In this document: positions 21,570 through 25,403 of the stretch, piece after piece
Layout of the letters: every line of letters starts with the position of its first letter
Position numbering within the stretch: position 1 is the first letter of the stretch
IMG/VR virus record: IMGVR_UViG_3300037336_000295
Span: 1-34,371 of that record
DNA: 34,371 bases
Strand: one strand, 5' to 3'
DNA from: a virus
Notes under the pieces: generated by a model
The model's database searches: none
What the model saw: only the letters and a program-made list of their open reading frames with translations
Told to the model about the DNA's origin: nothing
Program-made: the position numbers and the translations under genes

Positions 21570-22087
21570 CATTTTACCAACAATTTATTTTAGACCTGCA
21601 GGAACTTATTGATAGCAAAGTGCCAGAGTTTCGATTTGTGGACCAGAATTTAGGACAATGGGGCAACGATAATTTTAGAGCTGCAGTTTCTTTTCCTGGT
21701 ATCTTGGTTGATTTTCCAACGACAACGTATAGCGAAATTGCTAGTGGTTCTGACTTGGCGTTGAATGAAATTAAGTTGACTTTGTTTTTTGATGTAAATA
21801 GTCAGAGTTACAATCTTGCACCACAGACGGTGAAAGTAAAAGCACTTCAATATTATGAACTGGAGCAAAAGCTTGTAGCAGTTTTAAAATCGTGGCAAAC
21901 TGATTATTTCACACCACTAGTTAGAACTACAGCTGTGAGTAGAAATCAGAACGAATTAGGAATGCGAATTCGTGAACTCACCTTTTTAAGCGAGCACGAG
22001 GAATATTTAGAAGATTGCAATGTTACCGATAAGGTTTTTGTAATTGACTTTACCGGGCAAATTCAAACAGGTTCATCTGAAGTGTAG
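21566..22087 (+). CDS. Gp37/tail terminator-like protein
   Basis: A 173-aa protein in the place of Mu gp37 (tail terminator). Beta-rich core (RAAVSFPGILVDFPTTTYSEI, NEIKLTLFFDVNSQ) followed by a helix (YYELEQKLVAVLKSWQ) and further strands fits the small tail-terminator fold. Overlaps the MuG-like gene by 4 bases and converges with the 73-aa leftward gene, overlapping it by 38 bases. Confidence 0.55.
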   Translation: MTFYQQFILDLQELIDSKVPEFRFVDQNLGQWGNDNFRAAVSFPGILVDFPTTTYSEIASGSDLALNEIKLTLFFDVNSQSYNLAPQTVKVKALQYYELEQKLVAVLKSWQTDYFTPLVRTTAVSRNQNELGMRIRELTFLSEHEEYLEDCNVTDKVFVIDFTGQIQTGSSEV

Positions 22088-22271
22088 GTTGCATTTTTGG
22101 AATAGGCCGACCTTTTATGTTCATCCATTGTCGGTAGCTTAAAAAAATATTGTGTTTTGGAAACTCACGGCGAATGATTTCAGTATCGGGAATATCAGGC
22201 GTTTTACAGGCGTTGTAAATCTTGACTACTTCTGTAGCCCATTTGTTGTAGTTATTACTATTATACGCCAT
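22050..22271 (-). CDS. Small hypothetical protein with its own promoter
   Basis: A 73-aa protein, antisense to the end of the packaging block by 38 bases. Sequence such as YNKWATEVVKIYNAC, IRREFPKHNIFLSYRQWMNIKG suggests a compact helical domain, possibly DNA-binding; I do not recognise the family. It is isolated from the genes to its right by a strong bidirectional terminator, and a near-consensus promoter with an inverted repeat lies directly upstream. Position between early and late genes is where Mu has its middle/late activators, but no homology to Mor or C is seen. Confidence 0.6.
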   Translation of the reverse strand: MAYNSNNYNKWATEVVKIYNACKTPDIPDTEIIRREFPKHNIFLSYRQWMNIKGRPIPKMQPTLQMNLFEFAR

Positions 22272-22356: not shown

Positions 22357-22926
22357 TTATTCATTTATTCGATGGGTATAATTTTGTATATACCAATTTT
22401 CACCATTTGATTTTCTTGAGAAATTAATCCAATAACCGTCTTCGTTTTTTCTTATTGCAGAAATTCCCTTTTGAGATATTTTTTCTTTGTCAGCAGTTGG
22501 GTCAACATTGTTTTTCCAAAAGTCAAAGAGATCTAAAAATTTAGCTTCAACGTTTTCAAAACGGTAAATAGGTATTCCTTTTATTTCTAGGTCTTTATTT
22601 TCGCCGTCATACTGAATTGAAAAGTGTACGCTTAAGTTTCCGGTACTTTCAAAATTATTCGTGTTTAGTGAAGTGTCCATGTGAGCTCGTAAGCTCTTCT
22701 TTTGCTCTTCTGTGCTATTTTCAGGTATAAAAACCATTGTGGACGCCTTTCCTCTTTGAGAAATTAGTTCATCAAAAAATACATATTTTATTCTTAAACT
22801 TTTAGCTATTTCTTCTGAAAATTTCTTTGCAAATAATGCATCGCATTTTGTAGCTTGTTTTAAAAGTTCAATATTTTGAGAAAATGCAAAGTTTGTAAAT
22901 ACTAATAGTAATAGTAATTTTTTCAT
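22357..22926 (-). CDS. Exported protein of unknown function (probable accessory gene)
   Basis: A 189-aa protein with a clear Sec signal peptide (MKKLLLLLVFTNFAFSQ, cleavage likely after Ser16). The mature part is mixed alpha/beta without a recognised domain (stretches KYVFFDELISQRG, FSIQYDG, GYWINFSRKSNGENW). It is separated from the phage genes by a terminator on one side and by the attC-like repeat at 22978-23040 on the other, and no phage role is apparent. Probably a passenger or lysogenic-conversion gene acting in the periplasm or outside the cell. Confidence 0.7.
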   Translation of the reverse strand: MKKLLLLLVFTNFAFSQNIELLKQATKCDALFAKKFSEEIAKSLRIKYVFFDELISQRGKASTMVFIPENSTEEQKKSLRAHMDTSLNTNNFESTGNLSVHFSIQYDGENKDLEIKGIPIYRFENVEAKFLDLFDFWKNNVDPTADKEKISQKGISAIRKNEDGYWINFSRKSNGENWYIQNYTHRINE

Positions 22927-22977: not shown

Positions 22978-23040
22978 AAATAACGTTGGTTTGGCGCAAT
23001 ACTCCTGCGTCGTACTGACGCCAAGCCATGTTGTTATAAC
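22978..23040 (-). repeat. attC-like site A
   Basis: A 63-bp imperfect inverted repeat. Read on the + strand: AAATAAC, TGGTTTGGCG, 22 bases, CGCCAAGCCA, GTTATAAC. The inner arms match in 9 of 10 positions. The outer boxes (AAC and GTT cores) frame it as in integron attC sites, with orientation leftward (GTTATAAC first, GTTATTT last). It lies between the 93-aa gene and the signal-peptide gene. Confidence 0.6.
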
Positions 23041-23043
23041 TCA

Positions 23044-23325
23044 TTATACCACCTGACGAATATTTTCTTCATCGACAATTTTTATAATTGGAGTTTCATA
23101 AACGTGTAATCCAGTAATAGTATTTCCATCATCTAAAAATGTGATATTTGTAACTACTTGAGTTTTATTTTTGCTCTTCTGAACAACTCCAATCCATTTA
23201 TGATTTTCGCCATCAAAACTTCCATTATCCATTTCAAATTTTGCAGTTTTTAAAGCGTTTGATAAAATTTGTTTTAAATTAGTTTCTTGTAACTGACCTT
23301 CTGAATTTTTAAAATATAATTCCAT
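23044..23325 (-). CDS. Cassette gene, 93-aa hypothetical protein
   Basis: A 93-aa protein unlike any I know: short strands and a helix (LQETNLKQILSNALKTAKFEMDNG), then HKWIGVVQKSKNKTQ and a hydrophobic end (TGLHVYETPIIKIVDEEN). It is the only gene between attC-like sites B and A. The cassette begins with GTTATAACTCG and ends with GAGTTATAAC, that is, its two outer boxes are complementary. No own promoter was found. Confidence 0.6.
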   Translation of the reverse strand: MELYFKNSEGQLQETNLKQILSNALKTAKFEMDNGSFDGENHKWIGVVQKSKNKTQVVTNITFLDDGNTITGLHVYETPIIKIVDEENIRQVV

Positions 23326-23336
23326 AATAATAACGA

Positions 23337-23473
23337 GTTATAACAGCAATTACACGCTATTGCTACATTGTGATTAATTTAATGTTTGTTTTGTACCTTT
23401 CAAATCCGTGTTAAATCGAAAGATGTTTTTGTGTTTTTACGCAACAGACGTGTAGTTGCGAAACGTTAGTGGC
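23337..23473 (-). repeat. attC-like site B
   Basis: A 137-bp site. On the + strand: GTTATAAC, GCAATTACACGCTATTGC, a long loop, then GCAACAGACGTGTAGTTGC, AAAC, GTTAGTGGC. The arms pair over about 17 positions with one unpaired base and few mismatches. The outer boxes differ (GTTATAAC versus GTTAGTGGC), as expected when two different cassettes are joined. Confidence 0.6.
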
Positions 23474-23667
23474 TATTTTACAGAACCACCACGTTCCAAT
23501 TCACCTTTAAAGATTTTAAATCTTTCATTTTCAAACTTTATTTCTTTTTTTCTGCTGAAATGATATTCCAAACTTGACTTGTCTAAACCAAATTTTTCGA
23601 CCATTACAGGCAAAGAACCGAAGAAGCCAAACTCTTTCGATTCTTTATCTATGATGAAATATGGCAT
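23473..23667 (-). CDS. Cassette gene, 64-aa hypothetical protein
   Basis: A 64-aa protein. MPYFIIDKESKEFGFFGSLP, then VEKFGLDKSSLEYHFSRKK resembles a short helix-turn-helix-like unit followed by a basic tail, as in small phage-associated proteins; no family claimed. Last of three genes sharing one cassette between sites C and B; its start overlaps the previous stop by one base. Its stop codon TAG overlaps the first core box of site B. Confidence 0.55.
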   Translation of the reverse strand: MPYFIIDKESKEFGFFGSLPVMVEKFGLDKSSLEYHFSRKKEIKFENERFKIFKGELERGGSVK

Positions 23668-23906
23668 TATTGAAAAAAATTAAATTGTTCTAATTCATCA
23701 ATATCAATAGGCTGAACGTTGTATCTATGATCGTTTTCGTCATAATTAGAATAATCATATTTGTTTATGATATCTTCTCTTAAATCCAAATCATTAAACA
23801 CAATTACATCTTTTGATGATTCAAAAGTCATTAGAAAGCTAAAACCTTCTGATAATGCTAATTCAAAGTTTTCTTTACTTGGTACGATAGTTTTAAAAGT
23901 TTTCAT
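23667..23906 (-). CDS. Cassette gene, 79-aa hypothetical protein
   Basis: A 79-aa acidic protein (many Asp/Glu/Asn, ending in DIDELEQFNFFQ). An N-terminal strand-helix pattern (MKTFKTIVPSKENFELALSEG, SFLMTF) is followed by a disordered-looking acidic part. Middle gene of the three-gene cassette. The acidic character and coupling to a basic HTH-like small protein recall antitoxin-like or DNA-mimic partners, but this is speculation. Confidence 0.55.
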   Translation of the reverse strand: MKTFKTIVPSKENFELALSEGFSFLMTFESSKDVIVFNDLDLREDIINKYDYSNYDENDHRYNVQPIDIDELEQFNFFQ

Positions 23907-23916
23907 AATTTTAAGT

Positions 23917-24189
23917 TTAAAAATTTATTGATAATAATGTTAATTCTTCTGAAATAATTTCTAATTGTTTGTCGCTTATTTTTTTTGAAACACCTACTGT
24001 TTTCACAACGTTTTTTACAAAGTTATTAGATGTTTTTACCCATAAAGTTCTTAGTAAATTAACTACATCTTCATCTATAATATTAAAAGTGTATTGCATA
24101 CCATATTTTGATTTAACAGCAGTTAATTTGCATTTTCTTTCAATTTTTTCTGAAATTTCTATACTTTGTTTTATTTGTAAATCAGTCAT
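23917..24189 (-). CDS. Cassette gene, 90-aa hypothetical protein
   Basis: A 90-aa basic protein with helices (LQIKQSIEISEKIERKCKL, VVNLLRTLWVKTSNNFVKNVV) and a short central beta part (AVKSKYGMQYTFNIIDED). No family recognised. First gene of the three-gene cassette, downstream of a strong Bacteroidota-type promoter inside the cassette. Confidence 0.55.
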   Translation of the reverse strand: MTDLQIKQSIEISEKIERKCKLTAVKSKYGMQYTFNIIDEDVVNLLRTLWVKTSNNFVKNVVKTVGVSKKISDKQLEIISEELTLLSINF

Positions 24190-24236
24190 AATTTCTATTT
24201 TTTAGCGATAATAACTTTGTTGTTGTTATCTGAGTA

Positions 24237-24267
24237 CAAATATATAACTTATTTTGTAATTACAAAA
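24237..24267 (-). promoter_or_regulatory. Cassette-internal promoter with palindrome
   Basis: Read leftward: TTTTG, 18 bases, TATATTTG, a near-perfect match to TTTG-N19-TAnnTTTG. The -33 box is part of a perfect 16-bp palindrome TTTTGTAATTACAAAA (24252-24267), a possible operator. It would drive the three-gene cassette 24189-23473. Confidence 0.65.
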
Positions 24268-24324
24268 CAAAAAAGCAATATATTTTTATTATTTTGTAAA
24301 CTTTAACATTTTAGAAAAAAAACA

Positions 24325-24460
24325 GCCACTAACATCGGTTTGAAAGCAATGGCAAAATATATGGTTAATTCGTGTTTATCTTTCGCTTGAAATTCAGTAG
24401 TAACGGCAAATTTACGTTTACGAAATTTGCCACTGCTTCAAGCCGAATCCCGTTAGTGGC
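24325..24460 (-). repeat. attC-like site C
   Basis: A 136-bp site, the clearest of the four. On the + strand: GCCACTAAC, CGGTTTGAAAGCAATGGC, long loop, GCCACTGCTTCAAGCCG, AATCCC, GTTAGTGGC. The 9-base outer boxes are perfectly complementary. The inner arms pair over about 17 bp with two substitutions and one extra A that would be extrahelical. Unpaired spacers (AT and AATCCC) separate outer and inner arms, as in attC. Confidence 0.65.
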
Positions 24461-24464
24461 AAGG

Positions 24465-24758
24465 CTAAAGAAACTCCTCAATCTTATGAGTATCTAAACC
24501 AGTATAAGTGTGTATCAACTTTCTCAAAGCCAAACCACAACTTTCTGCCATTTTTAAGCGTTCATCTATATTCATATCATCATACTCTTGATTGTCATAC
24601 ATTTTATCCATCAAAGCCGTTTGAAATATAATTATACAATTCATAAAATCTCTTTTTGAATAGTTCGGTTTGTTTTCATTTCCATTTGCATCAGCATCAG
24701 CATTTTGATTTAACAAGTCATCAGCAATTGTTTCTAATTCTTTTTTGTATGCTCTCAT
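24465..24758 (-). CDS. Cassette gene, 97-aa hypothetical protein
   Basis: I use the ATG at 24758 (MRAYKKELETIADDLL) and not the GTG 8 codons upstream, which falls inside the core box of site D. The protein is helical: an Asn/Asp-rich linker (NADADANGNENK), then RDFMNCIIIFQTALMDKMYD and MAESCGLALRKLIHTYTG. Family unknown. Only gene between sites D and C; both cassette ends carry GTTAGTGGC/GCCACTAAC boxes. Confidence 0.6.
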   Translation of the reverse strand: MRAYKKELETIADDLLNQNADADANGNENKPNYSKRDFMNCIIIFQTALMDKMYDNQEYDDMNIDERLKMAESCGLALRKLIHTYTGLDTHKIEEFL

Positions 24759-24777
24759 TTTATTTGTTAAAAGCCCA

Positions 24778-24910
24778 GCCACTAACAGCGTGTATAAAAA
24801 ATGGCTGGTTCTCGGTTAATTTAAAGTTTTGTAATTCTAATTATGGTTTGTGCTTGCTGAAAGTTTTAGAGTTCTAATCCGCCACTTCTTATGCACGCAA
24901 AACGTTATTT
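24778..24910 (-). repeat. attC-like site D
   Basis: A 133-bp site. On the + strand: GCCACTAAC, GCGTGTATAAAAAATGGC, long loop, GCCACTTCTTATGCACGC, then ACGTTATTT. The arms pair over about 18 positions with three transitions, extended by GG/CC after one extra T. The outer box AAATAAC (leftward sense) does not match GTTAGTGGC next to it, but is complementary over about 12 bases to the GTTATTTTTT at site A, three cassettes away. Confidence 0.6.
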
Positions 24911-24911
24911 T

Positions 24912-25403
24912 TTAATACCGTTTATCCGTCCAATGAATTAGTTTTCCTTCAAAGTCATCATTGAAGTATTCAAAGAAAGCTTCAACGGTATCAAAGCCGT
25001 CGTTTTGTGCTAGTTCTAGCCACTTATCTTCGGGCAAACGTTTTTCATTTATAGCAATTGCCTTTTTAAGAGGCAAATCGTTCATTAAAGTTTCCCGATC
25101 GTTGTAATATACAATCTCAAATTTTTGAACACTCACCACTGGCAGAACCGGTGCAAACTGAAACATGTCTTTTTGACGTGCATTTATAAAGAAATGAATC
25201 TTTGTGCCAACTTGCCAGCGGTTGTTTTTGTCTTCGCGAATGGTATGTATTTTAGGACGACTGCCAATGGACTTATTAATATCACTTTTTTCAAGAAATA
25301 TACCATCAATACCAACATCAAGATGTTCTATTATTCCGGAATGAATTTTCTCGACGAAATACGTTGGTTTGCCGTTTAATTTTGTGCTAAATGGTAATAT
25401 CAT
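24912..25403 (-). CDS. ASCH-like protein
   Basis: A 163-aa early protein. PKIHTIREDKNNRWQVGTK, IHFFINARQKDM and VVSVQKFEIVYY match the pattern of ASCH/YqfB-like domains (a PUA-related fold that binds nucleic acid), with HTIR at the usual conserved position. The C-terminus has a conserved-looking DGFDTVEAFFEYFND then LIHWTDKRY. Common in Bacteroidota phages, role unknown. Start overlaps the previous stop by one base. It is the last early gene before the cassette array. Confidence 0.55.
   Translation of the reverse strand: MILPFSTKLNGKPTYFVEKIHSGIIEHLDVGIDGIFLEKSDINKSIGSRPKIHTIREDKNNRWQVGTKIHFFINARQKDMFQFAPVLPVVSVQKFEIVYYNDRETLMNDLPLKKAIAINEKRLPEDKWLELAQNDGFDTVEAFFEYFNDDFEGKLIHWTDKRY

Follow-up and report, generated by a model that had tools for sequence, protein, structure and literature searches.

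A Mu-like phage genome carries an array of three gene cassettes that very probably grew as a CALIN (at least two close attC sites without an integrase) at a resident hairpin of the phage, with cassettes drawn from a phage pool in which the genes are inverted and with a recombinase supplied in trans by the host. The array lies in the virus contig IMGVR_UViG_3300037336_000295, 34371 bp long, and "the window" denotes this whole stretch of DNA. The window encodes a Mu portal (Portal_Mu), an F-like protein (Phage_Mu_F), a DDE (rve) transposase and a MuB-like ATPase (AAA), which confirms the Mu-like identity assigned in an earlier, sequence-only reading. The position given there for the array is also correct, with early genes (minus strand) on one side and head genes (plus strand) on the other. 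The host is probably a bacterium in Flavobacteriales. As that reading had stated, the window encodes no integrase: the tyrosine recombinase profiles TIGR02249 and PF00589 gave no match. With no such match beside the array it is not a complete integron, and its four sites in 2 kb place it among CALINs, a classification that presupposes that the sites are attC. An Rfam search of the array region returned nothing relevant. Where the early and head gene blocks meet lies a 73-aa gene (22050–22271, minus strand), 52–61% conserved in most Mu-like relatives and without a PHROG match.

Sites were identified by scanning the whole window for TAAC...GTTA pairs with complementary inner arms, with 20 shuffles of the window as the null. 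The array and its flanks contain the following features.

22357–22926, minus strand: gene beyond site A, a flank and not a cassette; weak relatives follow the phrog_8581 gene in site-free Mu-like phages
22981–23036, minus strand: site A, a short hairpin (score 23), weak alone
23037–23468, minus strand: putative cassette 1, site B plus gene 1; ends GTTATAACTCG / GTTATAACTCA, with the position-11 G/A mark; limits within the TAACG core
23044–23325, minus strand: cassette 1 gene, 93 aa, phrog_31941 (no assigned function; E 1.2e-24)
23341–23468, minus strand: site B, attC-like (score 27)
23469–24455, minus strand: putative cassette 2, site C plus three small genes; ends GTTAGTGGCTG / GTTAGTGGCTA
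23473–24189, minus strand: cassette 2 genes, open reading frames at 23917–24189 (90 aa), 23667–23906 (79 aa) and 23473–23667 (64 aa)
24330–24455, minus strand: site C, attC-like (score 33)
24456–24907, minus strand: putative cassette 3, site D plus gene 3; a related contig (L043) shares exactly this stretch
24465–24758, minus strand: cassette 3 gene, 97 aa (ATG start), no assigned function; relatives in 46 viral contigs
24783–24907, minus strand: site D, attC-like (score 27)
24912–25403, minus strand: phrog_8581 gene upstream of the array, a flank and not a cassette; it occurs without the array in related Mu-like phages

The stem scores of sites A, B, C and D were 23, 27, 33 and 27, and the maxima of the 20 shuffled windows ranged from 18 to 24. 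When spacer filters were added, 38 of 40 shuffles had zero sites and the other two had one. As B, C and D scored above every one of the 20 shuffle maxima and the shuffles were almost free of sites, these three are beyond chance; the scan thus recovered all four of the imperfect inverted repeats proposed earlier. Site A was not significant by itself (5 of 20 shuffles reached 23). Despite this weak score its outer ends agree with the array: GTTATTTTTTTATA right of A and TATTAAAAAATAAC left of D are complementary, which is what a resident hairpin that receives cassettes would give.

All four sites follow the attC plan, an imperfect palindrome (R''-L''...L'-R') with AAC/GTT cores and unpaired spacers. 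The spacers are indeed unpaired, as first described, and unequal: 5–6 nt on one side and 1–2 nt on the other (3 nt in A). Within the R' consensus GTTRRRY the GTTA was set by the scan itself, and the next bases (GTTAGTG, GTTATAA) agree only partly. A single unpaired stem base had been claimed for B, C and D; judged by eye, B and C have one bulged base each, but the arms of D differ mainly by mismatches. Site C folded with z = −5.4 on the gene strand. As placed in the array, B and D folded weakly as DNA, which was resolved by folding each site with its own cassette ends, that is, in the form of the excised circle. Full hairpins were then obtained for D, B and C, the energies going from −8.7 for the bare core to −21.9 kcal/mol for the circle form in D, from −13.4 to −22.0 in B and from −18.2 to −30.5 in C. 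Strand asymmetry was found in D, C and B of the window, and the cut strand was the stabler one in 117 of 121 viral and 102 of 105 chromosomal circle forms. Across 50 sites, stem covariation was seen in 282 of 400 pairs against 169 ± 10 with shuffled partners; these were counted at fixed offsets because RNAalifold found no structure on a MAFFT alignment of whole sites, in which the left arm is misaligned. Neither resident site A nor an empty-site sister of the window phage was found among other viral contigs, and no match to the site family came from plasmids, searched with a single 135-nt query.

The intervening genes are all encoded on the minus strand and belong to no common family, in agreement with the original description of small unrelated genes in one orientation. 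Protein-family searches gave no confident family for the cassette 2 genes, and by eye the interval from site C to the first of them contains a promoter-like TATATTTG. Within each cassette of the window the two ends are complementary (GTTATAACTC/GAGTTATAAC, GTTAGTGGCT/AGCCACTAAC and GTTAGTGGC/GCCACTAAC), so that excision as a circle would restore a complete attC-like hairpin. The own-end match was 6.5 of 10 variable positions in 119 viral units, compared with 3.4 when shuffled (best shuffle 3.85), and 7.7 of 10 in 48 chromosomal units, compared with 3.9. At position 11 the ends have a conserved mismatch, the own-site side carrying G and the cut side A; this held for 95 of 119 viral units, 43 of 48 chromosomal units and all three cassettes of the window.

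Since complementarity alone cannot assign a site to a gene, polarity was taken from relatives. L043 shares only site D and gene 3 with the window (94%, window 24451–24909), up to the TAAC of site C, and nothing beyond. DNA like site B is present in two further contigs (L030 and L031), which backs cassette 1. Phage units with a common gene share the upstream site and often differ in the downstream site, never the reverse, and the identity between such units begins and ends at the TAAC|G core. Cassettes that are near-identical between flavobacterial phages likewise have TAAC|G as their exact limits, a sign of site-specific recombination, and exact cassette duplicates within one Flavobacterium array have the same boundaries. 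The own (cut-end) site was the shared one by 10:0 among 142 viral units and by 11:0 among 113 chromosomal units. A by-eye reading in which each gene moves with its downstream site was ruled out by L043 and the gene-sharing phage units. Judged from these sequence comparisons, the mobile unit in the window is a site with its downstream gene. The window thus has the crossover at the R core and the mutually complementary cassette ends of attC cassettes, but its genes do not lie upstream of their own attC (D goes with gene 3 downstream), as those of chromosomal units do. On the evidence of L043, the phage relatives and the unit counts, the architecture is not the classical one invoked in the earlier reading, as a site here moves with its downstream gene and not with its upstream one.

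Comparison with related phages revealed the cassette turnover that had been looked for. Two Mu-like relatives, L029 and L006, have different cassettes at nearby positions, adjoining the same small hairpin. The cassette gene of the former (L029:9065-9598) encodes 177 aa (MGCDIHSF...), and the ends of that cassette match over ~14 nt. Siphophages of Flavobacterium sp. LMO9 match the window at site B (89–90%) and at the cassette 3 gene (76%), and their early regions contain about 8–14 sites of the same family each. A single site pattern matched at least 120 viral contigs, and phage CALINs have been published (PMC9892861), so the array is not the unusual find it was taken for; such cassettes are common in phages of flavobacteria. 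We found no recombinase in the phage records tested, and the INPHARED collection held no phage with the array-linked recombinase described below at E ≤ 1e-40.

Chromosomes of Flavobacterium and Weeksellaceae have sites of the same family next to a XerA/IntI-like tyrosine recombinase; the recombinase of Chryseobacterium sp. Leaf404 adjoins four such sites. In 41 recombinase neighbourhoods (554 kb) there were 68 sites, compared with 0 in control loci (227 kb) and ~1 in shuffles, and at least one site was detected in only 18 of the 41. One Flavobacterium genome has ~52 sites in ~35 kb, all in one direction, beside the recombinase (L197 and L322; G227:C1:2935500-2973400). This array, a flavobacterial superintegron, has exact cassette duplicates at different positions, signs of past or recent shuffling. 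Homologs of the recombinase were present in 54 of 100 sampled Weeksellaceae genomes (E ≤ 1e-50) and 63 of 121 genomes of the genus Flavobacterium (E ≤ 1e-45), counts that may include non-integron enzymes.

Array-linked recombinases scored 181–215 bits on TIGR02249 (cut-off 265); on NF040815 (XerA / integron integrase, cut-off 220) one of them, L091, scored 240 bits and three others 202–211. Aligned to VchIntIA (2a3v), they match in two blocks; the stretch between these has 19 residues and its IntI counterpart 62, so that ~43 residues of the IntI-specific insertion between the catalytic blocks are missing. The chromosomal recombinase therefore lies outside the IntI family as defined by the TIGR02249 cut-off and the insertion. 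The PDB entries nearest to its predicted structure by E-value were XerA and IntI, for a model with a pTM of only 0.54. Many of these enzymes have an N-terminal extension of ~70–90 residues that matches nothing in Pfam and contains a conserved RWS...W(H/Y)LPD motif; in L109, L121, L163 and others, of ~345–370 aa, it spans approximately residues 1–70 and is predicted to form strands and a helix. Further homologs, in several Flavobacterium genomes (G124, G131, G175, G190, G205 and G221), lie in open frames of ~590–614 aa, perhaps as fusions with another domain. Going by these alignments, the likely integrase of the arrays is not a canonical IntI, and standard integron searches would be expected to miss it.

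We propose that site A served as the resident phage site for cassette insertion, with the cut end at its left in gene orientation, and that three cassettes, each of one hairpin site and its downstream gene or genes, were inserted in register at the TAAC|G core. They would have been drawn from a phage pool whose genes are inverted relative to attC. The recombinase would be supplied in trans by the host, would act on a folded single strand beginning with TAAC at the cut end, and would be the XerA/IntI-like enzyme found with chromosomal arrays. The earlier suggestion that a host integrase moves the cassettes holds in part: an array without an integrase is probably host-served, given the breakpoints, the complementary ends, the turnover and the host arrays beside a recombinase, but the likely enzyme is not a canonical IntI.

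It is improbable that a canonical host IntI moves these sites as ordinary attC sites and that the XerA/IntI-like enzyme is not the one that serves phage arrays. Chromosomal arrays with these very sites adjoin the XerA/IntI-like enzyme, and the IntegronFinder 2.0 survey recorded one complete integron in Bacteroidetes, in Salinibacter (PMC9024848). That reading does accord with an R core and hairpin plan similar to those of ordinary attC, and with the integration by IntI1 in E. coli of one of two tested sites of the flavobacterial phage P12002L, attC2, in a study in which five of six phage sites were active with IntI1 (PMC9892861).

Somewhat less probable again is that the repeats act between early genes as terminators of phage transcription or as structured RNA elements, with genes swapped through homologous recombination across the repeats. 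The sites are intergenic, T-rich stretches occur in site A and in some resident hairpins, and the sites are alike enough to recombine with each other. However, the breakpoints fall at the 4–6 bp TAACG core and are not scattered over the repeat, end complementarity lies within a cassette and not between neighbours, the DNA-strand asymmetry is consistent, and long arrays of the same sites, all in one direction, adjoin a recombinase.

With polarity set by breakpoints and position 11, the sites have the same polarity in phage and chromosomal cassettes and the genes have opposite orientations. The end of the longest open reading frame that lay at the unit's own site was the 5' end in 102 of 103 viral units and the 3' end in 102 of 103 chromosomal units (Fisher p = 4e-57, for units that are not fully independent). 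A per-site census gave inverted to classical ratios of 96:8 and 32:2 in two viral sets, the larger of which was selected by site sequence alone, and 4:51 in chromosomes. That this difference is an artefact of sequence-based polarity calls or of sampling related phages, several of which come from one host strain, is highly improbable, since the breakpoints fix polarity in both groups (10:0 and 11:0), the position-11 mark agrees and the set chosen by site sequence still stands at 96:8.

Among 149 phage cassette proteins there was one weak match only to chromosomal arrays, so the two pools look separate. Phage cassette genes are probably read through by phage transcription. We rejected the possibility that phage-site loops supply the gene with a Bacteroidetes −7 promoter motif (TAnnTTTG), as it occurred in 1 of 157 phage sites on the gene strand. 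The motif was directed towards the next gene in 14 of 43 chromosomal sites (2.9 expected; L099, L131-L150, L181-L200), so attC-borne promoters may drive the next cassette there. One idea, which is speculative, is that inversion would put the recombining strand on the coding strand, exposed by transcription. We give an even chance to a broader proposal, that Flavobacteriales possess an integron lineage of their own, in which the XerA/IntI-like recombinase is without the IntI insertion, that their phages have a separate inverted pool, and that the inversion is selected, for instance because the coding strand of phage operons is then the recombining one, and isolates the phage pool from the chromosomal one.

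The window is one member of a common group; the surprise lies in the recombinase, which is non-canonical, and in the inversion rule. Our data suggest that Flavobacteriales and their phages widely shuffle genes in the manner of integrons, and that tools keyed to canonical IntI have likely missed this. Phages would gain a defined route for swapping small early genes, including methyltransferases. The near-perfect inversion of genes with unchanged site polarity is an unexpected rule, which bears on the links among strand choice, transcription and cassette flow.

We found no paper on such flavobacterial integrons or inverted phage cassettes in the open literature, subscription papers and preprints lying outside that search. 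Phage CALINs, IntI1 activity of phage attC sites and methyltransferase cargo have already been published (Qi et al. 2023, PMC9892861); the main text of that paper makes no mention of Flavobacterium or Bacteroidota and reports no inversion rule. Those CALINs, especially that of Polaribacter phage P12002L, resemble the window in having attC-type sites without an integrase in phage genomes. Divergent site directions were noted in P12002L (PMC9892861), and by eye its sites, like those of the window, lie 5' of genes. The LMO9 phages (Lillamyvirus, Muminvirus and Hattifnattvirus; PMC7077304) have arrays of the same site family but are siphophages and not Mu-like; a term search of the paper describing them found no mention of cassettes or hairpins. 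With Vibrio-type sedentary chromosomal integrons or superintegrons the flavobacterial arrays share long one-direction arrays of genes and hairpins, strand-asymmetric hairpins, the AAC/GTT crossover and complementary cassette ends. They differ in that the flavobacterial enzyme is without the IntI insertion and the site spacers are unequal (about 5 and 1 nt), and the phage cassettes further differ in being inverted, with no integrase in cis. The array-linked recombinase itself is like XerA/Xer recombinases (NF040815; PDB 5hxy, 4a8e) in length, domain plan and sequence, but unlike them the flavobacterial enzymes adjoin cassette arrays, and many have an extra N-terminal domain.
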